Below, one piece after another: positions 40,776 to 58,343 of a DNA stretch of 64,000 nt (the stretch's first letter is position 1; every line of letters starts with the position of its first letter). The notes under the pieces are model-generated. The model searched no databases, was not told the origin of the DNA, and was given only the letters and a program-made list of their open reading frames with translations. The position numbers and the translations under genes are program-made. Origin of the DNA: Oceanicaulis sp. HTCC2633 (lineage in GTDB: Bacteria > Pseudomonadota > Alphaproteobacteria > Caulobacterales > Maricaulaceae); assembly GCF_000152745.1 (NCBI RefSeq), contig NZ_CH672428.1:430916-494915 (forward strand), read 5' to 3'.

Positions 40776-42023
40776 ATGTCGCTCTGCCAAGCTTCCCGTG
40801 CACAGCTTCCATCATTTCTTGCTGGCCCATACCTGGTTCACCCCAGAACGAGCACCCCTCGTTATTGGGCAACCATCTACGCTCTCAGAAATTGGTCCGG
40901 GAACGCTCAATCGACGATCAGGAAGAAATTGCGGGCAATTGAGAGGCTCTACAATTTCGCGATGGAGCTCTACGGCTATGATGTCTTGGACCGTTTCATC
41001 GCGAGCTTGGCAACCGATGAGCTAGATCGCACTCTTGAGGCCTATTTCATTGCCGAGCGAAACCGAGCCGCTCGCTCCGGCGCAGACATCAACCGCGCTT
41101 GGCGCACCACCAGAGACTTTATTCTCGAGACGCTCCAGGATCTGTCGCATACATCAAACGATAAAGCGAAGCTGCACGAATTATCGTCTCACATAAAACG
41201 CTGGGAGCTGAGATATAGAAACCTCTCTCCGAATCCGATTCCGAAAAGAATCCATGTCTTACGTGCCCTGCCAGCACGGGTGATTGAAGAGCTCTACACA
41301 CTCTTTAAGCCCGATAGCCCGGATAATCCGTTTCGCTCAGAGCCGCAACGCTGGCGTAACATGGCGATCCTCCTTTGCCTGCTGCATCAGGGCCTAAGGA
41401 GGAGCGAGGCGCTCCTTCTGGCGGCCGATGCCGTCAAAACCGGAACCGACGAACGCACGCTCAAACCTCGCTACTGGATGAACGTCCAGAACCAATTTGA
41501 AGACGAAGATCCGCGCTATTGCGACCCGCCTTCAATCAAGAACTCTCAGAGCATCCGGCAGATACCGCTGTCGCGTGAAGTTGCTGAATATATTGATGCC
41601 TACGCTACGAACTATCGAGGACGGTCCCCTCACCCTCAGCTATTCCTCAACAATCGTGGCGCCCCTCTAGGCGTCAGAGGGTTGGGTCGTATTTTCGATC
41701 GCGTATCAACGCTGTTGTCAGACGACGCCAAGCAGGCGCTTCAAGAAAATCTTCGTCGGCCGCGCATCAGCGCTCACGATTTCCGTCACACCTGCGCAGT
41801 GATCCGGCTCGCTCACTTCCGAGCGCATGGGAACGACGAAGACGACTCTCTGGCTCAGCTCCGTGCTTTCTTCGGCTGGACCTACACCTCCAACATGCCT
41901 CGGCTGTACGCCCGCGCTTATTGGGAGCGCCAGATCGAAACGGTTTGGAACGACGATTTCGATGCGCACGTAGATGCGCTCAGAACCATTGAACCGGGTG
42001 GGTGGAAAGAGTGTCTCAGCTAG
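40776..42023 (+). CDS. ginA: Tyrosine recombinase, first of three (GinA-like)
   Basis: A 415-aa site-specific recombinase. An N-terminal SAM-like DNA-binding region is followed by the catalytic domain, with Arg208 in GLRRSEALLL, His334 and Arg337 in SAHDFRHTC, Trp in FFGWTYTSN at the usual His/Trp position, and nucleophile Tyr378 in RLYARAYW. All key residues are present, so it is probably active. Its end overlaps the next recombinase gene by about 22 bp. Three such genes plus a small fourth match the ginABCD operon of GInt mobile islands, which is required for excision and integration. It sits at the island's left end. Confidence 0.85.
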   Translation: MSLCQASRAQLPSFLAGPYLVHPRTSTPRYWATIYALRNWSGNAQSTIRKKLRAIERLYNFAMELYGYDVLDRFIASLATDELDRTLEAYFIAERNRAARSGADINRAWRTTRDFILETLQDLSHTSNDKAKLHELSSHIKRWELRYRNLSPNPIPKRIHVLRALPARVIEELYTLFKPDSPDNPFRSEPQRWRNMAILLCLLHQGLRRSEALLLAADAVKTGTDERTLKPRYWMNVQNQFEDEDPRYCDPPSIKNSQSIRQIPLSREVAEYIDAYATNYRGRSPHPQLFLNNRGAPLGVRGLGRIFDRVSTLLSDDAKQALQENLRRPRISAHDFRHTCAVIRLAHFRAHGNDEDDSLAQLRAFFGWTYTSNMPRLYARAYWERQIETVWNDDFDAHVDALRTIEPGGWKECLS

Positions 42024-43576
42024 ACTTCGACTTTGGACCAAACGGGCGCTCCAAGGCTCTTCCTGCAGATGAAAACGTCAGGCATGTCGCCGATGCGTTG
42101 GGCGCGCTCCCGAAGCACGTCCGATATTTTGACGAGTATGAAGAGAAAATTCGAACGATCCACACGGAAGAAGATGTTTGGCAGATCGAGGCAAACGGCA
42201 AAGCGATTAGGGTCGATTTCTCAAACTTCGACGGGCCGTTCAGGACCATCTTAAAGCACTTTGGAGCTCACCGGCTTCAGAAAAACGCAATTACCGGGTG
42301 TATCCATCTTGTGACTCTTGCGACTACAGGAGGCATCCAGTCACATTTGATTGCGCACGCTTGCACAGGACCCAACGAGGGTCTCGAATTCCTCAGCATT
42401 GGATACTTCGCTAGAGCTAAGCAAGTAACAAACTCATTTTATTTTTCGACCGGTAAAGCGCTCCTCTATTTCTTTAGCGATCTTAGCCTAGCTGGCTGGG
42501 AAGAAGCGCACTCCAATATTCTCAGGACCGTAAGGTCGCCGATTGCGAGTTCCAAACATCGGGCAGTACGTGACGGCTCGGCGATTCTAACGTTCGAAGA
42601 AGAACGCAAGGTGATTGATCACCTAGACGAACTCAGCGCGGCGATACGGCAAGGGGATGAGACGAAGCTACCAACAGAGATCCTCCGCGACTCCGCCATC
42701 CTCATGCTTTGCTTTCAACACGCAATGCGGCCTATCCAGATTGCGAACAGGAACGTGGCCCACGTTCGCGTTAGAGAAGCGGAGGATGGACAAGCTATTG
42801 TCCACCTGACTTTTCGGTACGCGAAACAACGAACGCGTCAGAAAATTCAGGAACAAACCAGAAAGATCAAACGCGATTGGGCTCCCATTCTGGTCGCCTG
42901 GCTTCGCCGGCGTGAGGAGCTCGAAGGCAGCCTCCGCCTGGACAGGGCTGAGTCGCTCTTCGGTGTACCGCCTCAGGAAGTTACTCGGATCGTCAGAGGC
43001 CTCACTGAGGCCCTCACCGGTATCCGCAGAACACCCTACCAGCTTCGACATACGGCAGCCCAGAGAAAGGCAGACGCTGGATGTTCCAGGCTCGAGCTGG
43101 CTGAGTTCCTGATGCACTCCGATATCGATACGGCCGATGCTTACATCGAGATGAGCCCGACCCAGGCGGAGAAAATCAATGCAGCCTTGGGCCTGTCTCC
43201 CCTCTTTCAAGCGATCGACGCATCCCTGAAGTCCAAGAGCGTGGACCTGGAGGAGCTAAACAAACTCCCCGAAGACCAACAGGTCTCAGGCGCGCCACAC
43301 GGCCATCTGATCGCCGGCATCGGCGGCTGTGCGATCGGTCAGTCCTTCTGCCCTAAAACACCCGCCCTCGCCTGCTATGATTGTCACAAGTTCATGTACT
43401 TACGCGAGATTGAGGTTCATCGCACAGCGCGCGACTCAATCCGAAAAATCGTCGGCGAGTTCATAGACACAAACAAGGGAGACAAGGTCACTCCCGCTTT
43501 CGGCCAGCTTCGGCGCGTTCTTGAGACCGTCGAGTCGATAATTTCGGGTCTGGAAGGCTCGGAGGCGGGCCAATGA
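42002..43576 (+). CDS. ginB: Tyrosine recombinase, second of three (GinB-like)
   Basis: A 524-aa recombinase. Catalytic-domain residues are Arg243 in AMRPIQIAN, then YQLRHTAAQR with Arg349 (the first His of the HxxR box is Tyr346), and Tyr381 in DTADAYIEMSP. The long C-terminal tail carries a Cys-rich stretch (GGCAIGQSFCPKTPALACYDCHKF) that looks like a zinc-binding site. GTG at 42002 is used; GTG at 42011 is also possible. It overlaps ginA by 22 bp and ginC by 4 bp, so the whole set is translated as a coupled unit. Confidence 0.82.
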   Translation: MERVSQLDFDFGPNGRSKALPADENVRHVADALGALPKHVRYFDEYEEKIRTIHTEEDVWQIEANGKAIRVDFSNFDGPFRTILKHFGAHRLQKNAITGCIHLVTLATTGGIQSHLIAHACTGPNEGLEFLSIGYFARAKQVTNSFYFSTGKALLYFFSDLSLAGWEEAHSNILRTVRSPIASSKHRAVRDGSAILTFEEERKVIDHLDELSAAIRQGDETKLPTEILRDSAILMLCFQHAMRPIQIANRNVAHVRVREAEDGQAIVHLTFRYAKQRTRQKIQEQTRKIKRDWAPILVAWLRRREELEGSLRLDRAESLFGVPPQEVTRIVRGLTEALTGIRRTPYQLRHTAAQRKADAGCSRLELAEFLMHSDIDTADAYIEMSPTQAEKINAALGLSPLFQAIDASLKSKSVDLEELNKLPEDQQVSGAPHGHLIAGIGGCAIGQSFCPKTPALACYDCHKFMYLREIEVHRTARDSIRKIVGEFIDTNKGDKVTPAFGQLRRVLETVESIISGLEGSEAGQ

Positions 43577-45870
43577 CCCTTATATCGTGCCATCCAGCGT
43601 TCGATCGCTTCCTTGAAAGCTATAAGAGCATCGCGAAGGCAAATGGTGTGTCCTGGCACACGCCAACCGACGAAGCCGGACAAATTATCAAGGCGTTCAG
43701 ATGGGATCTCAACGAAATCACTGGCGCTCCTAAACCGCCAGCTTTTTACCTGAAGGACCTAGGCACCGACCTAGCCACGCTAAAGGCGCTGGCATCTGGA
43801 AATCCCGAGCAAAATCACTCACTGGAAAAGATCCCTCTGTCGGATGGTTGGGCTGACCTGATCAAAGCTCTCACGATCCGCTCTTTGTTCGAGTTACGGA
43901 ACAGCGCTCACTATACTTGTAATGCTATCGGTCGTTCTGTGAGGGCCCTTGCGAGCTGCTGCTCTGGAAGTGAGCCTTGGGAAATAACACGCGAAGATGT
44001 TGTGCGCGCCCTCGGTGTGCTCGAGAAAATCGACAAGAACCAAAAGCTTAAATCTTTGGCGGAGGCGCAAGTTGTAATTTTCGACACCCTTGGCCTTTCC
44101 GCCCACTGTCCGCTTAATCGGAAACGATCTTCGGGACAAAGTCGCAATCGGGACACTACCATTATTCGTGCGTCGATTGATGATCGACGTAAAGGGGATC
44201 GCCTGCCGGGCGCGACGGAGTTCTGGGAGCTTTTGCGGATCCTTCTGGAGGAACAACCCCTTGGCTCATACGACGCAGTTCGCTTCTTGGCGGCCGAACT
44301 ACACCTCCTCATGGGCTTGAGGGTCGGGGAAACTGTGACTGTTCCGGTTGATCCGCTTGTCAGCCAATCCTACTTCGACCCTCGTGGTGGGAAGCCTTCG
44401 CTTATTGGAGGAGTCGATCGCACTCTTTTCCTGCGTCACTTCGCAGAAAAACAGGAGCTAAGCGACCATACTGGGGCGATACATGCCGAAGCCACCACGT
44501 CCGTGTTGCGTCTGTTTGAACAGCGGATTTCGGAGCTCGTCGAAACCGCCACCAGGATGACCGCGCCGCTAAGGCAGAGACTCACCTCCCAGCTTAAAAC
44601 AGGCCGCATTCTTCCAGAATTTGAGCTTGATGAGATTGTCTCACTTGAAGATGTCTTCACGCAGCTAACAGGGAACCCGTTCGGGCTTGATGGTGCGTTC
44701 AACTTGGACCTGGCGGAGAAATACCGAGCCACATTCGATGTCGAAGTGCTTCACGAAATCCGTGACTATCAAGCTCGGCTGAAACGAGACAGAGCGAACT
44801 ATACCCAACCGCTGCGGACATTTTTCGGACGGAAGGAAAATGCATGGATCCCGCGAATACTAATCGATCCAGCAGATGCGAGCCGACGCCTTATCAATGT
44901 CCGCATCCCTATCGGTGAGCTTGAGCGACAAATCCGACTGAACATACCCACCAAGCTCAGCGACACAGAACCTTTCCCGCTTGAGGGAGGCCGTGAACTC
45001 AAGGCCGACCAGTCCCTATTCCTTGTTCCCAAGCGGGCGCTGATTGAAGGGAGAAACGGTGGGGTTTGCGACATTACCAGGTACGCGTTCGTAGGGCGGC
45101 TAACACCTTCTGACCTCGGGATGGCTTTTGGAACCCAGAAAGTTGGGAAGGGCGCCAGCCAGTCGTTCTATGCGAAGTACGGGAAGCCAGAGTTTCGATC
45201 TCTCAACTTCAAGAGCCACTCCTCGCGTCACATGCACAATAACGAGCTGTTCGCGGCCGGTGTCGCCGATACGATCATCACCAACCGCTTTGGCCGAAAA
45301 AGCGTCGCACAAAGCCACGAATACGACAGCCGAACTCTGGCCCAGGAGCTCGACGCCATGGAGCTGCCAGACGGTTCGGAAGATCTACTGACGGGTCCGG
45401 CGCGCGACGCTTTCAAGCTGATCAGCGCCGGCCGCGCACAGGGCCCGATTGCCGATGAGTTCCGGCGCATTCAGGAAGCGGAAGGTGATGAGGCCGCAAT
45501 CGTTTTCCTCGCCACAGAAGCCGACGGCATGCAGATCACGCCCTACGGCCTGTGCATGAATTCCTTCGTCGTGGAGCCCTGCCCTAAACATCTTGAGTGC
45601 TTCAATGGATGCTGCCACCTCGTGAGAACAGGATCGGCTCTAGAGGAGCGACAGCTCGACAAGCTCGCCGGCCGATACCGCACCCTGCTCAGCACCATTG
45701 ATAAACACCCTGGCACGCAGGCCTCGAAAGCGGCGGCCCGCCGCCAGGCCGAAGAGCGCCTGACGGCCATCGAGCAAGCGCGCGGCGCCGCACCGGGCAA
45801 GCAAGTGTTTCCGGACGGCCCGGATCTGGGCAAGCGCTATGGGGAGAAGAAGATCGAGGGCCTGCTGTGA
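43573..45870 (+). CDS. ginC: Large tyrosine recombinase, third of three (GinC-like)
   Basis: A 765-aa protein with a long N-terminal region and a catalytic domain showing Arg250 in MGLRVGETV, His549-Ser-Ser-Arg552 in SHSSRHMHN, and Tyr584 in QSHEYDSRT. The distance between Arg250 and the HxxR box is unusually long, due to an insert of about 200 residues. A Cys/His-rich tail (CLKHLECFNGCCHL-like, near residues 675-687) may bind zinc. It overlaps ginB by 4 bp (ATGA) and ginD by 4 bp. Large recombinases of this kind also occur as TnpB in Tn554. Confidence 0.8.
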   Translation: MTLISCHPAFDRFLESYKSIAKANGVSWHTPTDEAGQIIKAFRWDLNEITGAPKPPAFYLKDLGTDLATLKALASGNPEQNHSLEKIPLSDGWADLIKALTIRSLFELRNSAHYTCNAIGRSVRALASCCSGSEPWEITREDVVRALGVLEKIDKNQKLKSLAEAQVVIFDTLGLSAHCPLNRKRSSGQSRNRDTTIIRASIDDRRKGDRLPGATEFWELLRILLEEQPLGSYDAVRFLAAELHLLMGLRVGETVTVPVDPLVSQSYFDPRGGKPSLIGGVDRTLFLRHFAEKQELSDHTGAIHAEATTSVLRLFEQRISELVETATRMTAPLRQRLTSQLKTGRILPEFELDEIVSLEDVFTQLTGNPFGLDGAFNLDLAEKYRATFDVEVLHEIRDYQARLKRDRANYTQPLRTFFGRKENAWIPRILIDPADASRRLINVRIPIGELERQIRLNIPTKLSDTEPFPLEGGRELKADQSLFLVPKRALIEGRNGGVCDITRYAFVGRLTPSDLGMAFGTQKVGKGASQSFYAKYGKPEFRSLNFKSHSSRHMHNNELFAAGVADTIITNRFGRKSVAQSHEYDSRTLAQELDAMELPDGSEDLLTGPARDAFKLISAGRAQGPIADEFRRIQEAEGDEAAIVFLATEADGMQITPYGLCMNSFVVEPCPKHLECFNGCCHLVRTGSALEERQLDKLAGRYRTLLSTIDKHPGTQASKAAARRQAEERLTAIEQARGAAPGKQVFPDGPDLGKRYGEKKIEGLL

Positions 45871-46379
45871 CGGTCGGCATCTCCCCTTCCCCGTTTGAAG
45901 CGCCCTGCCCGGAGCTGGGCGCCGTGTGCCGAAGGCTTGCTGAACAAGGGCGTAAGATCACCCTGCGCGCCGCCGCGGCGGAACTGGGCGTCGCGCACAC
46001 GACCCTCTCTCGTGACGCCGCAAAACGGCTTCAGCTGGGAGAATGCCAGAAGCTTGCCGAAACGGTCCTGCGCATCGCTCGGAACAACCGGGGGCGGCTC
46101 GGCGTCGAAGAGAGCGAGATGCTGGCCGAAGCAAAGCGCAAGATCGCCAAACTCGAGGAACAGAACGCTCTTCTCATCGCCTCCCATCAGGCGATGATCA
46201 TGGCCGTTGGTGAACTTGGAGGCATGCGCGCCTGGCGCCGGTTCTTCGAGGATTATCAGTCAATTGTCGATCGACTTGTGGATTACGGAGCTATCCCTCA
46301 AAGGGCCAAAATCATTAATTTCGCTGAGAGATCTGCGAGTGTGAGAAAAGACCAAGCTGGCGATCAGAACACTGAATAA
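45867..46379 (+). CDS. ginD: Small HTH/coiled-coil accessory protein of the recombinase operon (GinD-like)
   Basis: A 170-aa protein with a helix-turn-helix-like segment (about residues 30-55: ITLRAAAAELGVAHTTLSRDAA), an acidic/basic coiled coil (about 75-105: EESEMLAEAKRKIAKLEEQ), and a basic tail. It overlaps the third recombinase by 4 bp. The position and form match GinD of GInts and the TnpC accessory protein of Tn554-type elements, which help the recombinases bind DNA. The start codon at 45867 is GTG. Confidence 0.72.
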   Translation: MTVGISPSPFEAPCPELGAVCRRLAEQGRKITLRAAAAELGVAHTTLSRDAAKRLQLGECQKLAETVLRIARNNRGRLGVEESEMLAEAKRKIAKLEEQNALLIASHQAMIMAVGELGGMRAWRRFFEDYQSIVDRLVDYGAIPQRAKIINFAERSASVRKDQAGDQNTE

Positions 46380-47337: not shown

Positions 47338-47535
47338 GTGTCAGATCCTAGAAAAGAACAGATCGAAGAGAACCCGGTGAGCGATGAATACGCTGGTGAA
47401 GAAATTCCCGCAGAGCTTTTATCAAAAATTGCCGGTGGCTATGATACGGAAAATGGCGGTGGGGATGGTTGGGACGGTCCCAGTAACAACACCGCGTCAA
47501 ACGGTGCCTACGCAAAGGCCTGGGGAAGAACCTAA
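47338..47535 (+). CDS. RiPP precursor peptide with double-glycine leader
   Basis: A 65-aa peptide. The acidic leader (residues 1-34) ends in ELLSKIAGG, with Leu at -7, Ile at -4 and Gly-Gly at -2/-1, the recognition pattern of C39 peptidase exporters. The predicted core (35-65) is Gly/Asn-rich with aromatic triplets Tyr35-Asp-Thr37, Trp45-Asp-Gly47, Tyr58-Ala-Lys60 and Trp62-Gly-Arg64. Three-residue cyclophane enzymes join an aromatic side chain to the beta carbon of the residue two positions later; YAK, WGR and YDT fit, WDG does not. The GTG start has a perfect AAGGAG 6 bp before it. A radical SAM gene follows after 65 bp, with a hairpin between. The core has no Cys. Confidence 0.8.
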   Translation: MSDPRKEQIEENPVSDEYAGEEIPAELLSKIAGGYDTENGGGDGWDGPSNNTASNGAYAKAWGRT

Positions 47536-47543
47536 ATAATAAA

Positions 47544-47581
47544 GCGAGGCAGTGTCCCTTAATCCAGGCACATTGCCTCGC
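47544..47581 (+). terminator. Hairpin between precursor and radical SAM gene (attenuator)
   Basis: GCGAGGCA and TGCCTCGC form a perfect 8-bp stem with a 22-base loop. There is no T-run. The position right after a precursor gene suggests partial termination or mRNA protection that keeps the precursor above the enzyme level. Confidence 0.6.
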
Positions 47582-47600
47582 CACTCAATTGGTAGCCCAT

Positions 47601-48794
47601 ATGAATAATGAACGAAATATTTTACAGGCTGTTCTCAAAGTAAGCGAGCGCTGTAATATCAGTTGTACTTACTGCTATTTTTTTAATGGGGCCGATAATA
47701 GCTATAGTGATCACTCTGCAATTATTTCTGAAAGTAGCGTTGATGAAGTGTGTTTGTTTTTAAGGCAACAAATAGAAGAGCTTGATCTGACATATGTTAC
47801 AGTCGCACTGCATGGCGGAGAGCCGCTGCTTATGAAGAAGCAACGGTTTGAATCAATGCTAGAGAAGTTGTCTACATGTTCTGACAAAGTTGACATAGAG
47901 TTTTATCTCCAAACAAATGGCATGCTTTTGGATGAGGAATGGATAGCGTTATTTTCGAGATATAAAGTTAGGGTCGGTATAAGCCTCGATGGCAACAAGG
48001 AAATTAATGACCGTCATCGCATAGACAAAAAACAAATTGGCACATATGAACGTTCAATTTCAGGCTTGCGATTAGTTCAAGCTGCAATTTCAGAAGGCAA
48101 GCTTCCCGAATCTGGGATCTTGTGCGTAATCAATCCAGAAGTGGATGGTGGCTCAACCTATCGTCATTTTGTTGATGATCTTGGTGTCAAGAACTTAGAT
48201 TTTTTACTACCAGACGAATCTCATGATACATTCAACACTGCTAATAGCGGTAAGTATGCTAACTTTCTAGTATCTGTATTCAGGGAGTGGGTGGCTGACA
48301 ATAATCCCAATATATCAATACGGTTCCTAGAGTACCATTTACACTTATTGACTAGAAATAAGGCGGATCGAAGAATACAGCGTGATTATGATGCTAGTAA
48401 GTACATAGTTACTATTAGTTCAGATGCGACGATTGCACATGATGATATTTTTCGAAGCATGAATCCGAAAATGTTTACAAATTTATTGCATGTAAGTGAA
48501 TCATCTATATCAGAGCTTTATCTATCCAGTGATGGAAAGCAAATAGACGCCGCGCATAAGACCTTACCAGATGATTGCACAGGTTGTATTTGGTCTGACG
48601 TTTGTCGCGGTGGGTATCATCTAATCCATCGATACAAAGAAGGCTCTTTATATAATAATAGATCAGTCTACTGTCACGATATAGATATAATTCTAGGCAC
48701 AATGGTAAATACAATGAGCAAAGCAGGAGTACTACGTAAAGAGCTTCTCGAAGAGTTTAGTGGAGTAATTAATGATAAAATCGTCCTTACTTAA
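47601..48794 (+). CDS. Radical SAM/SPASM-like RiPP maturase (candidate cyclophane-forming enzyme)
   Basis: A 397-aa radical SAM enzyme. The cluster motif is Cys18-x3-Cys22-x2-Cys25 in CNISCTYCYFFNG, followed by HGGEPLL (SAM-binding GGE) and QTNGMLLDEEW. The C-terminal auxiliary-cluster region has Cys326, Cys329, Cys335 and Cys358, in CTGCIWSDVCRGGYHLIHRY and SVYCHDI. This tail, with GG, HRY and N-x-S-V-Y-C, is like the XyeB/GrrM/FxsB group that forms cyclophanes in triceptides. No separate RRE domain is seen. ATG at 47601 is taken; TTG at 47589 is possible. It overlaps the peptidase gene by 23 bp. The AT-rich composition differs from the host. Confidence 0.87.
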   Translation: MNNERNILQAVLKVSERCNISCTYCYFFNGADNSYSDHSAIISESSVDEVCLFLRQQIEELDLTYVTVALHGGEPLLMKKQRFESMLEKLSTCSDKVDIEFYLQTNGMLLDEEWIALFSRYKVRVGISLDGNKEINDRHRIDKKQIGTYERSISGLRLVQAAISEGKLPESGILCVINPEVDGGSTYRHFVDDLGVKNLDFLLPDESHDTFNTANSGKYANFLVSVFREWVADNNPNISIRFLEYHLHLLTRNKADRRIQRDYDASKYIVTISSDATIAHDDIFRSMNPKMFTNLLHVSESSISELYLSSDGKQIDAAHKTLPDDCTGCIWSDVCRGGYHLIHRYKEGSLYNNRSVYCHDIDIILGTMVNTMSKAGVLRKELLEEFSGVINDKIVLT

Positions 48795-50427
48795 ATTTTT
48801 TCCCTTCATATTGATTAGTTATGCCACCATTCCTATCAGTGAAGCGAATGAAAATCCTTACGTTGAAATCACGGTTAATCAGAATTCTGATGCATCATGG
48901 ATCGTAGATCTTGTCATACCTAATGATAATTTAGGCTTACTTGAGCTGAGGGAGATGCGTTATACGCATGAAAATTGTGAGCCGATAGAATATAGCCTTA
49001 TTGAATATAGTGGCGCTGAATACAACTCAGAACATTCTACAGAATCAAGAATGTATTTTAGTCCTATCAATCAAGAAGCGCTACGTATATCCTATCTTGT
49101 AACTGCTCAGGAATATAGGGGAAGTCATTCTATCGATTCGATGTCGGGGTGCAGTTCCCTAATGGACTTTGGTGAATATTCACTACTTGACGGCAAAGCT
49201 TTGTTGTTGGCTTTACGCCCCTTGAATATGGAAGGCGTTCCATATCGTTTTGGTGACACCAGATTTACATACTCGAGTGAATTTGAGGAACCTTCGTATC
49301 TATCAGACGGAAGCTATGAAGGTAATAATTCTTGGATTTTTAATAGGGCAGATGATCTTTGGTTCTCATTTTTAGCTGCAGGAAATTGGGAGTCGAAAAT
49401 AATTGAAATTCAAGATGGTCCCACCTTGAGTTTAGTGTATGCAGATCAAGTGTCGAATGAAGCTTCAGAGTTAAGCACCTTAATCACTGATACTTTTGAG
49501 TCGCTTGAAGATCGATGGGGTAATGCGGAAGTTGACACATACTCAGTCTTAATTTCACCTCCAATTTTAGACGCGGGAAGTTTTGGTCAATATACCGGAC
49601 TTGCTAACCCTAATTCTTCTGCCATTCATCAGGGTGTCGGTCTAAATAAACGGCACTTGATGACACTCATCGTGCATGAAATCGCTCACCATTGGATGCC
49701 ACGTCTGCTAGGAATGGTAGATCAGGACACTTGGATTGGAGAGGGATTAGTTGAACTTGTAACATACATAGAACTAGTCAAAATGGGCTATGTGGAAGAA
49801 GATTTTTTGGTGAGCCGAATTAATCGATCTATATCGAACCTTCAATCAAATTATGAAGTATCGCAACTTGACTATGACTTTGGTATCATTTCTTGGATTG
49901 CTGCAACCCAATTCACAAATACAGACCTAACTGGTGACCGGTTTGACAACCTAATTGAAGCACTAGAAGAAGAATCGGAACAGACTCTTACTTCTGACAG
50001 ATTCTGGGGGCACTCAGAACTACCGACTATAGAATTCAATTCTGAAGATAATAGTATTCTGATCTCGCATCTTCCTTGTCAATTCAGCATCAACGGTAGC
50101 GAATATGAGCTGATAGAACACGCTTGGCCGACATACGAGAGGGGTTTTGTTTTATCCAATACGGTGCCGGGTCTTATAGAAAGAATCATCCCTGGAAGCG
50201 CTGCTGAAAGAACAGGTTTAAATAGTGATGACACGATTTTTCTAATCGATAGCTTTGGTTATGGTGACATCCATAACTCAGTTATTATACATTATTCTAG
50301 AGATCAGCATACTAATTCAGTTGCTTATCTTCCTATTGGTGATCCAGGGCCAGTTGTATATCCTCAGTACGTCTCATCCCTAATGGCAGATCTATATCAA
50401 GAGAGTCAAAGATGCACAAATTTGTAG
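48772..50427 (+). CDS. Exported HExxH metallopeptidase, M61-like, with PDZ domain
   Basis: A 551-aa protein with an N-terminal signal peptide (LLKFFPFILISYATIPISEA). A beta-rich N-terminal half is followed by the zinc site His302-Glu303-Ile-Ala-His306 (HEIAHHWMP) with Glu324 in WIGEGLVEL, 18 residues after the second His. This is the gluzincin form of M1/M61 aminopeptidases. Residues about 440-500 (RGFVLSNTVPGLIERIIPGSAAERTGL) are a PDZ domain, as in M61 glycyl aminopeptidases. It probably acts in the periplasm. In this operon it may trim the leader remnant or the exported product, or give self-protection. It overlaps the radical SAM gene by 23 bp and the hydroxylase gene by 16 bp. Confidence 0.82.
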   Translation: MIKSSLLKFFPFILISYATIPISEANENPYVEITVNQNSDASWIVDLVIPNDNLGLLELREMRYTHENCEPIEYSLIEYSGAEYNSEHSTESRMYFSPINQEALRISYLVTAQEYRGSHSIDSMSGCSSLMDFGEYSLLDGKALLLALRPLNMEGVPYRFGDTRFTYSSEFEEPSYLSDGSYEGNNSWIFNRADDLWFSFLAAGNWESKIIEIQDGPTLSLVYADQVSNEASELSTLITDTFESLEDRWGNAEVDTYSVLISPPILDAGSFGQYTGLANPNSSAIHQGVGLNKRHLMTLIVHEIAHHWMPRLLGMVDQDTWIGEGLVELVTYIELVKMGYVEEDFLVSRINRSISNLQSNYEVSQLDYDFGIISWIAATQFTNTDLTGDRFDNLIEALEEESEQTLTSDRFWGHSELPTIEFNSEDNSILISHLPCQFSINGSEYELIEHAWPTYERGFVLSNTVPGLIERIIPGSAAERTGLNSDDTIFLIDSFGYGDIHNSVIIHYSRDQHTNSVAYLPIGDPGPVVYPQYVSSLMADLYQESQRCTNL

Positions 50428-51581
50428 ATATTATTAAAGGTACATCAAAAGAAGAATTCTTCGAGAAATACTATGGACAGCGCCTCCTTCGTAGTCATTT
50501 AGGTATTGAATCGGTATTGACCCTGATTGATTGGGATAAATTTAATTCATTGCTCGACATTACTACAGTGCACAATGGAAAAAACATTGGTTACTCAAAA
50601 AGTGGGGAGGCTGAATTTAATCCTTCTAGTATATGGCTCCAAAATGGAAAGCTGTCCTCGCAAGAAGTGAGCAACTTAATTTCCACCGGCCACACGTTTA
50701 TAATTAACTCTATACATACACGGTTAAATAGTTTCGACTCCCTAGCAAATGATATGCAATCTGTATTCAGGGAGGACGTCAATTTCAATATTTACCTATC
50801 CCAAAAGCCTGAAGTCGGTTTTGGTCTCCATTGGGATGATCATGATGTGTTTGCTATACAGGTTTATGGTCGAAAATATTGGAAAGTTTTCGGCTTTAGT
50901 GAACCCCATCCCCTCGAAAGGAAAAAGGGAAAACAATTTAAAGAACATATAGAGCCAATTTGGGAAGGCTATCTAGAGCAAGGCGACTGTTTATATCTTC
51001 CCAGAGGCATGTGGCATTCAGTAGTTTCTACAGGCATACCGTCCATGCATATCACCTGTGGGGTGAACGGCTTCACATCTATAGACATCTTAAATTGGAT
51101 GGTTGCTCACGCCAAAGATTGTGATCTTCTAAGAAAGGGCATTGCTCCGAATTGCTTGGATTTTAAAGATACATCAGATGCCATTCAAGATTGGGTATCT
51201 GATTTTCTCAAAGACAATCCAGTAGAGCGCTATTGGGATGATAAACAGGCTCATAGATCACCTAGATCTATAGCGAATTTTCCATCTTCTTTAAATGTAA
51301 CGTGGACCAGTAATAGCGACGCGTGTAAAATACGTTACATGGGTCCCGAAAACCCACTTACTTGGAACTCTGACAATTCCACCTTTGTTGTCATTAATGG
51401 TAAGGAATATAAATTCGACTTGGATATAAAACCACTTGTTGATCTAATATTTGAGAATATTGAACATGATTCAAAGCAAATTCTTAATAAGGCGGATGAT
51501 ATAGGTGCTTCAGATAAGCTATTAGAATTACTAAAAACACTAGAGTACGATGGTGTTATTTCTCGTGTGAATTATGAATAG
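50412..51581 (+). CDS. JmjC/cupin-type Fe(II)/2-oxoglutarate hydroxylase
   Basis: A 389-aa protein like the ribosomal-oxygenase (RoxA/YcfD) and cupin_8 JmjC enzymes. The iron triad is visible: His140-x-Asp142 in LHWDDHDVFAIQVYGRKYW and His202 in LPRGMWHSVVS. Lys in GRKYWKVF and the following strand resemble the 2-oxoglutarate site. No signal peptide, so it acts in the cytoplasm. As the fourth gene of the coupled RiPP operon it probably hydroxylates a side chain of the core peptide, before or after crosslinking. ATG at 50412 overlaps the peptidase gene by 16 bp. Confidence 0.83.
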   Translation: MHKFVDIIKGTSKEEFFEKYYGQRLLRSHLGIESVLTLIDWDKFNSLLDITTVHNGKNIGYSKSGEAEFNPSSIWLQNGKLSSQEVSNLISTGHTFIINSIHTRLNSFDSLANDMQSVFREDVNFNIYLSQKPEVGFGLHWDDHDVFAIQVYGRKYWKVFGFSEPHPLERKKGKQFKEHIEPIWEGYLEQGDCLYLPRGMWHSVVSTGIPSMHITCGVNGFTSIDILNWMVAHAKDCDLLRKGIAPNCLDFKDTSDAIQDWVSDFLKDNPVERYWDDKQAHRSPRSIANFPSSLNVTWTSNSDACKIRYMGPENPLTWNSDNSTFVVINGKEYKFDLDIKPLVDLIFENIEHDSKQILNKADDIGASDKLLELLKTLEYDGVISRVNYE

Positions 51582-52539: not shown

Positions 52540-53391
52540 TCAATCATCATATTGGTTTATATATTTGAGATAGTTGTGATATTTTACTATAATATCCATA
52601 ATAGTGCCGGCAAAATATTCCCAATTGTTTTTAATGTATAAATTCAGATATGACTTTAATAATTCACCTGAAAATAAATACTGCATAGGGCCCAACGGGA
52701 GTGATGGCTTCGCGATAATATCATAATTCATCAGGTCTATTATAAAAAGTGCTCTTGCGGTTCTTCCGGTACCATCCAAAAAAGGATGGGTTGTGTTAAA
52801 GTCAGCAAATCGCCGAATTGCCCAAAGAAGTGGGGTGTGATAATCTGATATCTGGCGATTTTCACGTATAAAGAGACAATCCTCTATCTCCGATGTTTTA
52901 GGATATACAACTCTATACCCTCCAGGGCCACGGCTGGTCTGGGCACGATTCGTTCGAAATTGTCGCTCTGAGCCGTACAGCCAGCTGCCGAGACCTTCCA
53001 TCGCTTCAACACCTCCAGCTCCTGGTGTGAACGCATTGCGATAGGCGTGCACGATGGCTTCTGTGCTGGGTCTAAGAAAAAATCGCCTCAAGCTTGGACC
53101 GCCCCCCTCTATTTTAAAGTATTTAGAGCGAATAGATTTTATGTCATGCTCCAACTGATACGCGAGACGCAATTCCAATCCGAATACATCTTCAGTATTT
53201 TTCCAAACTAGATCGCTCTCACAAAGCATGGACTGAACGGCGAGAGAGCGCTCAACAAGTCCTGGTGATGAGACATCCGGCAGGGCACTAATCCGGACGT
53301 GATGTTCATCTCCTTTCAAGATATATGTCTTGGGAGCAACTCTATCAGTTTTAGAGTATGATTCCCTATCAAACCCGCTTTCTGACATCAT
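52540..53391 (-). CDS. Fic domain protein
   Basis: A 283-aa protein. The Fic motif begins at His202: HPFLDGTGRTARALFI, against the canonical HPF-x-(D/E)-GN-(G/K)-R. The catalytic His, the acidic residue and the Arg are kept, but Asn is Thr. A DUF4172/Fic_N-like N-terminal part is suggested by GSSA-free text around residues 30-60, but this is not certain. Fic proteins add AMP or other nucleotide parts to target proteins. No antitoxin partner is adjacent. AGGTGA precedes the ATG at 53391. It is alone between the IS remnant and the exporter genes. Confidence 0.88.
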   Translation of the reverse strand: MMSESGFDRESYSKTDRVAPKTYILKGDEHHVRISALPDVSSPGLVERSLAVQSMLCESDLVWKNTEDVFGLELRLAYQLEHDIKSIRSKYFKIEGGGPSLRRFFLRPSTEAIVHAYRNAFTPGAGGVEAMEGLGSWLYGSERQFRTNRAQTSRGPGGYRVVYPKTSEIEDCLFIRENRQISDYHTPLLWAIRRFADFNTTHPFLDGTGRTARALFIIDLMNYDIIAKPSLPLGPMQYLFSGELLKSYLNLYIKNNWEYFAGTIMDIIVKYHNYLKYINQYDD

Positions 53392-54109: not shown

Positions 54110-56260
54110 CTAATCTGCGTTCTTGCTGGTTCTCTTACTCGTCATGACCGAACGGTCGATTAGATGGACACGGCCGCCGACTATAGTCACCACCCGGTCC
54201 GCCCGTTCCACCAATGCGGGTCGATGGGCCACGACGATGCGGGTGATGGGCATCTGGCTGATAGAGTCGGCGATGACATTCTCAGTCGCAGGATCGAGAT
54301 TGGCAGTGCCCTCGTCCAGGATCAAAATCCTGGGATCGCGATAGAGAGCCCGGGCCAGAAGCACGCGTTGCCGCTGTCCACCCGACAGGGCGGAGCCCAT
54401 ATCGCCCACCAGCGATAGGAACTGCATAGGCATGGCGGCGATTTCATCATGGATGCGTGCGGCATGGGCGGCCGCATGAATCCGCTCCATATCCATATCG
54501 GGATCAAAGAAGCTGATATTATCCGCAATGGTGCCGGAGAGCAGCTGGTCATCCTGCGCCACCACTCCCACCTGGGCGCGCCAGCGCCGCCAGCCGATTG
54601 TATTCGCAGGCTTTCCATCCAGAAGGATCTCGCCTTCATCAGGTACATAAAGGCCCAGCATGAGTTTGAGCAGCGTAGACTTCCCGCCGCCGGAGGCACC
54701 AGTTATAGCAACAAATTCACCCGCCCTCACGTGTAGATCTGCGCCAGACAAGACGGGACGATCCCCGGCACCGTATTTGAAGACCACATTGCGGGCCTCG
54801 ATCTCGCCTGTAATGTCCTCGAGTATGCCAGTCTCCGCACCAAGTGTTTCATCGCGTTCCGTATGGACAATGTCGCCGATCCGTTCCAGGTGCAGGCTTA
54901 GAAGGCGTAAATTAAACGCCTCGTTGATCAGAGCCATGACCCGGTCGGTAAATGTCTGGCGGAAGCTGAGATAGGCGAACAGCATGCCCACTGAGAAGCC
55001 ATCGCCCGCCAGAATCATCTGCCCAGCCAGGTAAACGACAAAGATGGTCTGAATCCCTGCAATGCAGGTCTGGAGTGCATTGCGGATGATCTCGAACCGA
55101 CTCAGCGAGAACTTCCGGTTCACCGTATAGGCAAACAGATTGCGCCAGGTACTCTCGCGTTCACTTTCTCGACCCATCAGTTTGAGTGTGCGCGAAGCGC
55201 GCACACTCTCGATCAGATGGCTTTGCTCCTTGGCCTGAGCGACGATGGCTTGTTCACTCCGTCGTCGCACCACCGGGTAAAAGGAAAAAGTGATGATCAC
55301 GCTCAGCGCCAGAGCGACCAGAACCACCATCGTCAACGTGACCGAATAGAAGAATAGAATCACCAACGCGACCAACGCCATGACCCCGTCGATCAACGCA
55401 GTCGCTGCGCCCCGGGTTAATACATCCTGGATGGGCCGGGTCGACTGCACACGCGAGAGAATGTCACCCACGTGGCGCTTTTCATGAAAGCTGATTGGCA
55501 GGCGCAGCAGATGACGGACCATATTTCCGATCATCTGGAAGGTCATCAATTGCCCCACGACCTGCAGGGCATAGGCGCGCAAGGCGGTCAGCCCTGCCTG
55601 CAGGATCATCAGGGAGCCAAACCCAAGCGCAAGAACCGCCAGCAGCCCTGGATCACCGCGGGCGATCGCCTCGTCGATCACCAGCTGGATGTAGAAGGGC
55701 GCAGCGAACACCGCCACCTGCAGCACGGCGGACAGGACGATGATTTGTCCGAAAGAGGCCCAGAACCCCTCCATTTTAGACCACAGGCTAGTTAGGTGTG
55801 TGGATTGGGTGGCGCTTACGGGCTCGAATTCGTCCGCAGGGGTCAGTTCAAGTACCACTCCGGTGAAATGCTTAGAGGCCTCTTCAAAGCTCAGCGTCCG
55901 CTGCCCCATGGCCGGATCATGCACGGTGATGGACTTCGGCGTTGCCTTGGCTAGGACCACGAAATGATTGAGGTCCCAGTGCATAATAGCGGGCGTGCGC
56001 ACCTTGCTCAGCGCTGCCAGCTCCACCTTCAGCGCCCGTGTTGCGAGCCCCAGCCCGTCGGCCATGGTCATCAGGGTTCGCAGGCTGGCTCCGGAGATGG
56101 ACAGACCGGTGCGCTGGCGCATACCGTTGAGATCCACATCATGACCGTGCCAGCGTGCCACCATGGTCATGCAGGCCAACCCGCATTCGGCCGTTTCGGC
56201 TCCCATGATGATCGGTAGTTTGCGACCCTTGAACAGGTTCAATGCATCGTCTCGGGTCAC
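54110..56260 (-). CDS. Peptidase-containing ABC transporter (C39 PCAT), RiPP/bacteriocin exporter
   Basis: A 716-aa transporter with three parts. The N-terminal C39 peptidase has Cys26 (ETAECGLACMTM), His99 (HWDLNHFVVL) and Asp115 (VHDPAMG), the catalytic triad that cuts after double glycine. The membrane domain (about 165-440) has about six helices. The ATPase shows GASGGGKSTLLKL (Walker A), LSGGQRQRVLLARAL (signature) and ILILDEGTANLD (Walker B). It cleaves a GG leader and exports the core through the inner membrane. GTG at 56260 is preceded by an AGAGGCG site. It follows the HlyD gene after 70 bp. The RiPP precursor at 47338 is the only GG-leader peptide I found in the island, so it is the best substrate candidate. 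Confidence 0.93.
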   Translation of the reverse strand: MTRDDALNLFKGRKLPIIMGAETAECGLACMTMVARWHGHDVDLNGMRQRTGLSISGASLRTLMTMADGLGLATRALKVELAALSKVRTPAIMHWDLNHFVVLAKATPKSITVHDPAMGQRTLSFEEASKHFTGVVLELTPADEFEPVSATQSTHLTSLWSKMEGFWASFGQIIVLSAVLQVAVFAAPFYIQLVIDEAIARGDPGLLAVLALGFGSLMILQAGLTALRAYALQVVGQLMTFQMIGNMVRHLLRLPISFHEKRHVGDILSRVQSTRPIQDVLTRGAATALIDGVMALVALVILFFYSVTLTMVVLVALALSVIITFSFYPVVRRRSEQAIVAQAKEQSHLIESVRASRTLKLMGRESERESTWRNLFAYTVNRKFSLSRFEIIRNALQTCIAGIQTIFVVYLAGQMILAGDGFSVGMLFAYLSFRQTFTDRVMALINEAFNLRLLSLHLERIGDIVHTERDETLGAETGILEDITGEIEARNVVFKYGAGDRPVLSGADLHVRAGEFVAITGASGGGKSTLLKLMLGLYVPDEGEILLDGKPANTIGWRRWRAQVGVVAQDDQLLSGTIADNISFFDPDMDMERIHAAAHAARIHDEIAAMPMQFLSLVGDMGSALSGGQRQRVLLARALYRDPRILILDEGTANLDPATENVIADSISQMPITRIVVAHRPALVERADRVVTIVGGRVHLIDRSVMTSKRTSKNAD

Positions 56261-56330: not shown

Positions 56331-57575
56331 TTACCCCCTGCGTCCGGCTGCGAAGAGCGGATCGAAAAGCCATTCGATCAAACTGCGCCGGTCAAGAATT
56401 ATATCAGCGTTTAACAGCAGGCCCGGCTGAAGCGGAATGGTCTCGCCATAGGCGTCGACCTCTGCGCGTTCTAGCATCGCCTCCACCCGAAAAACCGGTT
56501 CTTGCAGGTTGAGGCCGGGGATGGCAGCCTCATTCGGGGCTAGCACGGTACGCGAGATGGCGGTGATGGTGGCCTTACCCGAGCCAAAGCGCTGATGAGG
56601 ATAGGCCTGATACATCAAGCGGACATCCTGTCCTACATGAATGAAGCCAGCGGCTCGGGTGGGTAAATAGAGCTCGGCTACTAACTCTCCATCCTCGGGC
56701 ATCAACACAGCGACGGTCTCGCCCGGCGCTAGGGTCTGGCCTTGCCGTACGGGCAGGGCCGCTACCCGGACATCGGCCGGGGCAGTGATGACGCCCTCGT
56801 TGCGGGCGCTTTGCGTTGTGATGCGCTCATCCAGTGCTGCGCGTACGGAGGCTGCGCGAGCGCGCTCGGCTTCGATCTGCAAGGGAAGAGATTGAAGCGC
56901 AGCGCGAACTTCAAGAATCTGACGGGAGATCGTGGCGTCGTTGCGTTCCAGCGCGGCCAGCTCCTGGCGCGCGGCAAGCGCCATGAGACGACGGTCATCG
57001 AGCTCCCGGCCCGACATATAGCCTCGCTCTGATAAGATTACCGCGCGCTCTATCTGTTCATCGGCGAGTGTGATGCGTTCGCGCTGCAAGCTGATCTGGC
57101 GCGAGAGCCCGGCCCGCTCGGTCATGAACCCGTGCAACGCGCCTGTAAGCCGGGCTTCATCCTGTTCCATGCGGGCGATTTCAGCATTGGCACTGCGCTC
57201 GGCGGCATCGGTTTGTGCTTGTAGTGCGCTCATCACGCGTGCGCCCGATGCACCGTCCAGCGTGTCGGTATCGAGCCGCAAACGGGCGAGCGGGGCACCG
57301 GCGGACACGATATCGCCTTCCTGCACTAAAAGAGCCTCGATCTGGCCGCCTTGCAGGGCCAGGGCCCTGATCACGCCTTGGTCGGGTGTCAGCCAGCCCT
57401 GCACCATTTCCTTACGCGAATAGCTTGCAGTACTTGCGAAGATCACAACGCTGGCGATGGTGAGCGACGCAATCGCGATCAGAAGCTTTAACGGCAAAGG
57501 CAGAGCTAGAACCACTTCACCATCCAGCCGTTGCGTTGCGTGCTCCATGGCCTCCTTATGAAACAGGTTGGACAT
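56331..57575 (-). CDS. HlyD family periplasmic adaptor of a peptide exporter
   Basis: A 414-aa membrane-fusion protein. One N-terminal transmembrane helix (about 30-52: LKLLIAIASLTIASVVIFA) is followed by a biotinyl/lipoyl-like half (IEALLVQEGDIVSAGAPLARL), a long coiled-coil hairpin (about 115-250), the second lipoyl half (GVITAPADVRVAALPVRQGQTLAPGE) and a C-terminal beta-barrel. It links the C39 ABC exporter to an outer-membrane channel, probably a host TolC. ATG at 57575 has AGGATC close upstream; a longer frame from 57617 is not needed. Confidence 0.92.
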   Translation of the reverse strand: MSNLFHKEAMEHATQRLDGEVVLALPLPLKLLIAIASLTIASVVIFASTASYSRKEMVQGWLTPDQGVIRALALQGGQIEALLVQEGDIVSAGAPLARLRLDTDTLDGASGARVMSALQAQTDAAERSANAEIARMEQDEARLTGALHGFMTERAGLSRQISLQRERITLADEQIERAVILSERGYMSGRELDDRRLMALAARQELAALERNDATISRQILEVRAALQSLPLQIEAERARAASVRAALDERITTQSARNEGVITAPADVRVAALPVRQGQTLAPGETVAVLMPEDGELVAELYLPTRAAGFIHVGQDVRLMYQAYPHQRFGSGKATITAISRTVLAPNEAAIPGLNLQEPVFRVEAMLERAEVDAYGETIPLQPGLLLNADIILDRRSLIEWLFDPLFAAGRRG

Positions 57576-58343
57576 AGATCCTGCCCTCAAATTAGAATCT
57601 GAAACAGGAAACCACATTCCCGTAAAAGGTTTTTAATTATAATAATTTCCCTCATGAGGGGAGCGCAAGTGCTAATGTGTCAACATGGATATCACTTGCC
57701 CCAAGCCCATCGCCGCGATGACCTAGGAGTATTAAAGTCCCACGGACGATACTTTGCTGGCGTGACATCAGAACCAGAACTGGTTGATTATGATCTCTCT
57801 ACCGTGGCTTCTTGATGGGCGTCACGCGATGAGATGGTAAGACTCGCCTATGAAATAAGCCTATTCCTAGCTTACGCGCTCTGCACCGTCGCTTCCAGGA
57901 ATTACAGTTTACGAAAGGTTCAGAACGTTCTGGCCACAGCATCGTTGGGATCTGAATCCCGATGACGAAGATCTTAGCCCTGCTTCGAAAGAGAACATGT
58001 CGCTGACCCGTCCAAGTGTCCCGCTCGCGCACATGTAAGACGAAGACTGCGTCAAATGCTGCGAGAGGATCGCCCACTGCAAAGCCCGCGAATGGTCGCT
58101 ACCGGGATCTGCCAGTTAGGCGCAGGAGGGGACGTAAAAACTAGCGGGTACTTGCGGCCCTAAATATGTTCATCTTAACGCGCAATCCTATCGGCAACAC
58201 GACTCCAGATGGCCGTCTTTAATTACAGAATCACGGGCAAGCGGTCTTTGTGGAGAGCTCAGAGCCAGAAACCGACGGCAAATCGATGTTTCAAGTCTTG
58301 AGGTCCGGCATACTCGAAAAAGCATTACCGCAAATCTGCCCCG
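57576..58343. other. Intergenic region with unrecognised remnants
   Basis: 768 bp. Next to hlyD a 12-bp palindrome CCCTCATGAGGG (57649-57660) and an AT-rich stretch with a minus-strand TATAAT (near 57633) may be the exporter promoter. A 92-codon minus frame at 57799-58077 has no family features and is probably not a gene. Confidence 0.4.

Follow-up and report, generated by a model that had tools for sequence, protein, structure and literature searches.

A candidate triceptide-type RiPP operon of a distinct XyeB-like clade in Oceanicaulis, with an exported M1/M61-like peptidase and a JmjC oxygenase

Genes at the Locus

The DNA considered here is a stretch of 64,000 nucleotides from Oceanicaulis sp. 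HTCC2633 (contig NZ_CH672428.1), which I will call the window, and its subject is a group of four genes on the + strand (47338–51581) that looks like a cluster for a triceptide-type ribosomally synthesized and post-translationally modified peptide (RiPP), with a radical S-adenosylmethionine (SAM) enzyme of a distinct XyeB-like clade. An earlier sequence-only reading had described four closely packed genes with overlaps of 16–23 bp, and all four are indeed present in one tight operon: the gene of a putative RiPP precursor (47338–47535), that of a radical SAM/SPASM-like enzyme, a predicted XyeB-like cyclophane maturase by curated models, alignment and tree (47601–48794), that of an exported M1/M61-like zinc peptidase (48772–50427) and that of a JmjC (PF08007) Fe/2-oxoglutarate oxygenase of the ribosomal-oxygenase type (50412–51581). 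The overlaps are of 23 bp between the radical SAM and peptidase genes and of 16 bp between the peptidase and JmjC genes. The most probable start of the radical SAM gene is ATG 47601, with TTG 47589 also open, and its stop is at 48794.

The precursor gene begins with GTG, preceded by AAGGAG, and encodes 65 amino acids. The Gly-Gly (GG) leader LLSKIAGG and the core free of Cys that had been claimed can both be read in it: the leader ends in ELLSKIAGG and the core, YDTENGGGDGWDGPSNNTASNGAYAKAWGRT, contains neither Cys nor His. No NCBIfam or Pfam family matches the precursor at E ≤ 1, and it is unmatched by the XyeA model (TIGR04495), with which a control (from locus L076) scores 88 bits at a cut-off of 33.

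The Radical SAM Enzyme and Its Relatives

The radical SAM enzyme carries CxxxCxxC and four C-terminal Cys, as the sequence-only reading had it, and these Cys are invariant in a seven-member alignment. A comparison with characterised triceptide maturases, which that reading had proposed, gives the best scores to the curated models for XyeB (345.4 bits), YhhB (263, with a cut-off of 445) and FxsB (213), all three of them cyclophane-forming families, and lower ones to the anaerobic sulfatase maturase (164) and dynobactin DynA (119). Since all of these scores lie under the curated cut-offs, the enzyme is not classed as XyeB.

A pattern-limited scan of genome contigs (84,980 species according to the tool's description) with the seven-member radical SAM profile gave 133 relatives, the best 80 of which fall into 78 distinct loci. 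With L062–L065 these make up the 82 XyeB-like loci to which the counts below refer, near-duplicates included and some reading frames chosen by a simple longest-frame rule. The best match, locus L075, comes from a metagenome-assembled genome of the same genus, Alphaproteobacteria bacterium bin.34, and has all four genes in identical order on the same strand, its maturase being 48% identical to that of the window. In tblastn searches of an 86-locus database, E-values for L075 were 5e-10 with the precursor, 1e-118 with the radical SAM enzyme, 2e-52 with the peptidase and 2e-86 with the JmjC protein, at identities of 45%, 48%, 26–27% and 37–38%, respectively. In a tree of 90 rows the window and L075 maturases form a clade of their own (100/100) that joins neither the enterobacterial Xye rows nor YhhB/FxsB; its deeper placement is uncertain, and several long branches meet there. 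The two are 47–48% identical to each other and at most 39% identical to the other relatives returned.

Only one of 14 other genomes of the genus, G753, has an XyeB-like match, and it is presumably the assembly that contains L075. A protein from elsewhere in the window (7522–8988) is 66% identical between the two genomes, a thin yardstick with n = 1 but above the operon genes, so that the latter either evolve faster or were separately acquired. Separate gains in the two genomes are favoured by the contrast in G+C content (GC), since the enzyme genes have 38–40% GC in the window and 63–70% in L075 (62–70% for all of its four genes).

A second relative of interest is L150, from Enhygromyxa salina (Myxococcota), where a small open reading frame with YTQ, HNQ and YNQ is followed by genes for an M61-like protein (with a lipoprotein-like start, judged by eye), a radical SAM enzyme and a JmjC protein, closely packed on one strand. 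Its maturase lies in a different clade of the tree, and the same enzyme set therefore accompanies a different type of triplet. By its sequence L150 appears to be an independent recurrence of an M61-like, an XyeB-like and a JmjC protein beside a Y-x-Q peptide. M61-like and JmjC genes occur together in L150 and L075 only (two of 82 loci).

The XyeB-like maturases of L063, L135, L145, L148, L149, L150 and L151 form a clade, and the precursors of these loci are full of Y/H/F-x-Q triplets between runs of Gly. In aromatic-x-Q precursors, Asn or Asp precedes the aromatic residue in 12 of 17 triplets at loci with a JmjC gene and in six of 31 at loci without one (Fisher p 0.0013, L115 included). I considered this motif as a pointer to the JmjC target and did not use it: it was noticed post hoc among ten related precursors from eight loci, some of the triplets belong to leaders or to an upstream frame, and the motif does not hold in the window. 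A related protein is found in 14 of the 82 loci, directly after the maturase in 13 (235–252 residues) and 3 kb further on in L096 (271 residues); the member tested (L133, 11224–11934) has no Pfam match at E ≤ 0.5. In G775, a family relative, the XyeB-like gene (L206, 6907–7978) lies in several pieces in different frames and is apparently broken. A search of viral contigs confirmed no relative of the radical SAM enzyme.

Probable Crosslink Sites

A search for homologous precursors, also proposed by the sequence-only reading, found a conserved one adjoining the closest maturase homologue, that of L075 (9692–9898, with GTG at 9692). It is 45% identical to the window precursor; both begin with MSD and have in common the end of the leader and the end of the core, Y-x-K-A-W-G-R. 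Crosslinks had been suggested at YAK, WGR and perhaps YDT. YxK and WGR are retained in both precursors of the clade. YDT is replaced by FGS in L075 and is rejected as a site, as is WDG, which is lost there.

The precursors adjoining Xye relatives have cores that end like GGWVNAFARWDKKF, with WVNAFARWDKKF an example of the further cores beside such relatives. In 18 cores, hand-picked as Xye-like, mutually related and including those of the window and L075, the motif aromatic-x-[K/R/N] occurs 41 times, as compared to 14.9 in shuffles (none of 5000 as high). In the products of XncB the bond runs from Trp C6 to the beta carbon of Arg or Asn, in those of YhhB from Tyr C3 to that of Arg (PMC11002830). 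Given this chemistry and the aromatic-x-[N/R/K] habit of Xye-type cores, YAK and WGR fit as crosslink sites, and the conservation of both motifs together with the family chemistry makes it very probable that the crosslinks are formed there.

The Exported Peptidase

Of the secreted HEIAHH peptidase with a PDZ domain that had been described, the HEIAHH motif (HEIAHHW...EG in full) and a hydrophobic N-terminus, judged by eye to be an export signal, are evident. The PDZ domain, near the C-terminal end, is a weak match (E 0.016); it and Peptidase_M1 (E 1e-3) are the only Pfam matches, both below the cut-off, and PF05299 does not match at all. HExxH and the downstream Glu in W..EG, a motif common to M61 and M1 enzymes, are invariant in ten of ten aligned rows.

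The call between the two families is less simple, and the M61-like label of the sequence-only reading is kept here in the wider form M1/M61-like, with M61 favoured by the predicted structure and by one relative. A profile of the window and L075 sequences (A2), compared with solved sequences, meets the M1 enzyme 3cia (E 2e-5), LTA4 hydrolase (0.007) and the M61 entry 7xyo (0.017). Profile comparison links the window and L075 peptidases with a group of five proteins encoded at four further XyeB-like loci (98%, E 9e-14), of which one member, L103, passes the M61 cut-off (24.3 bits, as compared to 22); over the zinc-site region only, the same profile is tied to further proteins at 95.5% and 96.6%. 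The structural model (mean pLDDT 62.5, with 80–90 in blocks around the zinc site) finds 4fgm, 7xyo (M61 of Myxococcus fulvus) and 8j9c (M61) at E 5e-16 to 6e-14 and M1 enzymes from 5e-13; 7xyo takes the second and third ranks behind 4fgm, which is titled as of the aminopeptidase N family. In 398 genomes of the phylum profile A2 has 46 matches, the best besides the window gene at 4e-9 over part of the profile; these were read as general M1/M61 enzymes and set aside. Plasmids gave no match to the peptidase at E 1e-5.

The usual companion in the XyeB-like loci surveyed is an aspartyl protease, in place of which the window has its M61-like enzyme. Near the maturase, 17 of the 82 loci have an aspartyl protease (E ≤ 1e-4), 11 an M61-like protein (within 7 kb), four an S9 and four another alpha/beta hydrolase, while 46 have none of these; with a union of 36, no locus has two hydrolase classes. 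At E 0.01 the counts become 21, 11, 4 and 5, the sole overlap being one protein that the S9 profile and the alpha/beta profile both pick up. These counts, and that of JmjC genes given below, are not independent, because the profiles were partly trained on the loci they then found (five aspartyl rows, nine M61 rows from eight loci besides the window, two S9, four alpha/beta, and five JmjC besides the window). The M61-like matches outside the training rows are L063, L087 and L143, and the S9 match of L095 lies more than 6 kb off on the other strand. On the tree, seven M61-like rows (a group that leaves out the window, L075, L150, L087 and L143) need four changes, at least three of them forced; shuffled labels do equally well in 98 of 500 trials, so the M61-like label is scattered.

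The JmjC Oxygenase

The HxD...H oxygenase of the sequence-only reading is firmly placed in PF08007 (90.5 bits with a cut-off of 22, E 8e-26), and the motif, H140, D142 and H202, is invariant in all six aligned rows. The nearest solved relatives, by sequence and by fold, are NO66, MINA and YcfD-like enzymes. A target of the NO66/MINA53 type is disfavoured, since those hydroxylate His and the core has no His. JmjC enzymes (BipG/BpmG) are known to hydroxylate Orn in the RiPP biphenomycin (PMC12707348, PMC12257519), and the enzyme here is consistent, by its sequence, with a +16 step on the predicted peptide.

The predicted tail of the protein consists of three strands (316–336) and then three helices (337–379), in blocks with a pLDDT of 48–70. 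PF08007 proteins of fish and algae are reported to carry a fused domain like the RiPP recognition element (RRE), and JmjC homologues of bacteria to occur in RiPP-like contexts (PMC12710340); with these fusions in mind, binding of the leader by the modelled tail is possible.

A JmjC gene lies near the maturase in five of the 82 loci, all five of them training rows, and no further one was found. As a search handle the family is too general, with matches in 54 of 385 genomes of the class; the window genome itself has a separate paralogue (G000:C1:1537922, 32%).

Exporter and Genomic Setting

A pair of exporter genes begins 2.5 kb downstream of the operon on the − strand, encoding a C39 peptidase-ABC transporter, of the kind that cleaves after GG and exports (54110–56260), and its HlyD-type adaptor (56331–57617). 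Neither this exporter nor the hairpin described below figures in the sequence-only reading. The C39 protein is 75–76% identical in four of 14 congeners (in one with an in-frame stop codon), and the exporter is found in three of the 13 congeners that have no XyeB-like match; in the L075 genome the C39/HlyD pair lies on another contig, beside a class II bacteriocin-like peptide. The exporter is therefore probably shared by the genus and was possibly recruited; it was not accepted as a dedicated part of the cluster, since congeners pair it with other GG or GA peptides. One of these peptides, searched for in the window genome, gave no clear match (best E 0.06). Of the 82 XyeB-like loci, 44 have a C39-ABC gene within 7 kb, the peptidase part being required (a looser draft count of 46 could include other ABC proteins); L075 and L150 are not among them.

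The peptides beside the genus-shared exporter in congeners are rich in Gly and Ala, class II bacteriocin-like and provided with GG/GA leaders (L168, 5657–5884; L203, 6237–6470; L204, 6804–7172, − strand; L205, 7127–7495, − strand). L168 has two copies of the HlyD end, one on either side of the insert. The window genome has a second C39 gene (G000:C1:1229887), part of a second HlyD/C39 exporter (L169, 6608–15559, within G000:C1:1222000-1238000) beside a protein of 632 residues that begins MCGIAAIID, a start which we take to resemble that of glutamine-dependent asparagine synthetases; L169 is possibly another peptide cluster.

Between operon and exporter lies a gene for a Fic protein (52540–53391, − strand), whose motif HPFLDGTGR has Thr in place of what is presumably the usual Asn. 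Fic-motif genes also adjoin the C39 gene in L083/L080 and the precursor in L086; with the window Fic protein as query at E ≤ 1e-3 these were not found. Its membership in the cluster is uncertain.

The precursor and maturase genes are separated by an RNA hairpin (47544–47581, + strand) with an outer stem of 12 pairs and no U run (−27.9 kcal/mol, z −6.36, none of 200 shuffles equally stable), which probably sets the ratio of precursor to enzyme expression. The corresponding spacer of L075 folds no more stably than its own shuffles (z 0.09). A scan for promoters and terminators found 18 and 12, respectively, as compared to 16.7 and 10.7 in shuffles.

Around the operon extends an island of about 40.4–62.9 kb, with ends drawn from GC and gene content and with recombinase-type genes at its start. 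The three enzyme genes have 38–40% GC and the precursor gene 51%, as compared to about 62% in the first 40 kb of the window, and GC and neighbours suggest that the operon was gained horizontally along with the island. Four overlapping genes upstream of the operon (40776–46379, + strand) are a probable mobile-island module, with an integrase match above the cut-off in one gene, below it in another and none in two. Repeats that might mark the island ends were sought, and nothing convincing emerged. Of seven island proteins scanned with PADLOC for a defence function, the Fic protein is the sole match. Two large overlapping genes at 58344–62650 (− strand), one of them with a weak STAND NTPase match under the cut-off, have no PADLOC match and are possibly a defence or regulatory pair of the island.

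Proposed Pathway and Alternatives

The explanation I favour, with some reserve, for the whole of these observations is a triceptide pathway with JmjC hydroxylation, C39 export and cutting by the M61-like peptidase. The radical SAM enzyme would form two bonds from an aromatic ring to a beta carbon, one between Tyr58 and Lys60 and one between Trp62 and Arg64, and the two three-residue cyclophanes so made would flank Ala61. The JmjC protein, which probably acts on this peptide, would then hydroxylate one side chain of the core, an Arg/Lys or Asn/Asp type of target being likelier than His. Removal of the leader after Gly34 and export of the core would fall to a C39 peptidase-ABC/HlyD exporter, for which the pair 2.5 kb away is the simplest candidate. 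The exported peptidase would act on the modified core outside the cytoplasm, either finishing it or, as the second choice, destroying product that re-enters. That this peptide is its substrate seems highly likely; that its role is maturation rather than immunity is only slightly preferred.

Immunity is accordingly the rival that carries most weight, though it remains the less probable account: a periplasmic peptidase would destroy returning product, the type I exporter bypassing the periplasm. An export signal (by eye), the lipoprotein-like start of the L150 homologue and the lack of any other recognised immunity gene in the operon would suit such a role, and the presence of a single hydrolase class in each of 36 of 82 loci is what would be expected of an interchangeable function, whether protective or trimming. 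Maturation draws instead on MfuP of Myxococcus fulvus, an M61 endopeptidase encoded beside a GG-cutting exporter, which is specific for the fully modified core of a lanthipeptide and, its function being incompletely understood, apparently serves core modification (PMC10885120); from species and family, 7xyo is likely to be its structure. The exporter may, moreover, release the peptide into the periplasm.

Other departures from the proposed triceptide pathway appear less plausible. The radical SAM enzyme might make some different linkage (another register, an ether, an epimer), Y-x-K-A-W-G-R being kept for recognition, and a clade known from two precursors, with 47–48% identity within and at most 39% to the other relatives returned, leaves room for this; it is nevertheless unlikely, given that the three best-scoring curated families form cyclophanes and that both triplets, each with a basic third residue, obey the known i,i+2 rule. 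More doubtful still is the idea that the JmjC protein is a ribosomal-protein hydroxylase caught in the operon. It is a relative of NO66, MINA and YcfD by sequence and fold, and such proteins are common (54 of 385 genomes of the class), but its gene has 16 bp in common with the peptidase gene and occupies the corresponding position in L075, the genome also encodes a separate paralogue, and the five XyeB-like loci with a nearby JmjC gene represent three branches (L115, on a long branch; L145/L148/L150; L075). That the operon is decayed or silent cargo of the island and yields no functional product, as the low GC of the enzyme genes and the recombinase-type genes of the island might suggest, is very improbable: none of the four reading frames is broken, the catalytic residues have been retained, the operon has a ribosome site and a stable hairpin, and the set is conserved in L075 despite 48% identity.

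Several observations count against the triceptide pathway as proposed. An orthologous operon is found only in L075, among the 78 loci from the best 80 of 133 relatives. The XyeB match (TIGR04496, E 3e-103) has a curated cut-off of 450 bits, well above the score obtained. The reverse of the crosslink motif, K/R/N two residues ahead of an aromatic residue, occurs 27 times in the 18 cores (a control without its own shuffle mean), and, as the cores are related and were chosen for their Xye look, the excess of aromatic-x-[K/R/N] is partly due to selection, composition and kinship. The core ends in WGRT, without the final Phe common in Xye cores. Profile A2 ranks the M1 aminopeptidase 3cia ahead of 7xyo, so the call of M61 over M1 draws on fold and on the single relative L103, and the peptidase model, of middling pLDDT, superposes poorly on its matches (TM 0.40–0.50, rmsd about 12–13 Angstrom). 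The JmjC model has a mean pLDDT of 60.6, and its top fold matches an rmsd of about 18–21 Angstrom. Finally, three of the four congeners that share the C39 protein lack an XyeB-like match and have class II bacteriocin-like GG/GA peptides at the exporter locus.

A broader and tentative view is that XyeB-like clusters are modular, with a slot for an exported hydrolase that may be filled from at least three folds (aspartyl, M1/M61, and alpha/beta including S9), and with a subset that adds a JmjC enzyme, perhaps bearing an RRE-like, leader-binding, winged-helix-like tail; the window operon would then make a bis-cyclophane, Y(x)K-A-W(G)R, which is hydroxylated and, once exported, cleaved by an M61 endopeptidase. 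If the proposal holds, a JmjC step is added to the XyeB-like triceptides, a small and expressible set of four genes would join three tailoring activities on one peptide (cyclophane formation, JmjC hydroxylation and cutting after export), and the role of the exported hydrolase near many XyeB-like maturases becomes a testable question. Xenorceptides, the nearest known family, inhibit the outer-membrane protein BamA (PMC12971899), and related peptides may by analogy be of antibiotic interest; BamA is not implied as the target here, since the core lacks the final Phe.

Comparison with Known Systems

The window shows two traits of a triceptide cluster: its maturase is a relative of XyeB/YhhB/FxsB and has both CxxxCxxC and the set of C-terminal Cys, and the precursor encoded next to it has conserved aromatic-x-x triplets. 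The sequence-only reading knew of no described cluster with exactly this set of genes, and none was found in titles, abstract openings and excerpts of open-licence papers, a scope thin in the subscription literature.

The L075 operon shares the four genes, their order and the end of the core, and differs in its GC of 62–70%, in an exporter on another contig and in a spacer hairpin no better than shuffles. The Xye systems (XyeA/XyeB, and XncB of Xenorhabdus, which makes xenorceptides) share a GG-leader precursor followed by a related radical SAM gene, aromatic-x-[N/R/K] triplets, an exported protease and an HlyD and C39-ABC exporter. In contrast, the window has a radical SAM enzyme of 345 rather than 450 bits, no XyeA match, an M61-like enzyme instead of the aspartyl protease, an added JmjC oxygenase, an exporter on the other strand and a core that ends in WGRT rather than Phe. 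YhhABC, from a Vibrio plasmid, also has a triceptide maturase followed by a 2-oxoglutarate oxygenase in overlapping genes, but YhhC is smaller (196 residues by coordinates) and goes by another name, no peptidase is annotated in that stretch, and the window maturase reaches 263 of the 445 bits of the YhhB cut-off.

For the two remaining activities the parallels come from further afield. MfuP belongs to a class II lanthipeptide cluster and is likewise an M61 enzyme beside a GG-cutting exporter (PMC10885120), its substrate being a lanthipeptide and not a radical SAM product. BipG/BpmG are JmjC enzymes of a RiPP and hydroxylate a basic residue inside a crosslinked triplet, but the crosslinks of biphenomycin are biaryl, formed by a B12 radical SAM enzyme, and the target Orn is made by an arginase (PMC12707348, PMC12257519); no arginase was recognised at the window operon. 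To judge from its genes, the operon appears to be a novel combination within the known triceptide kind.

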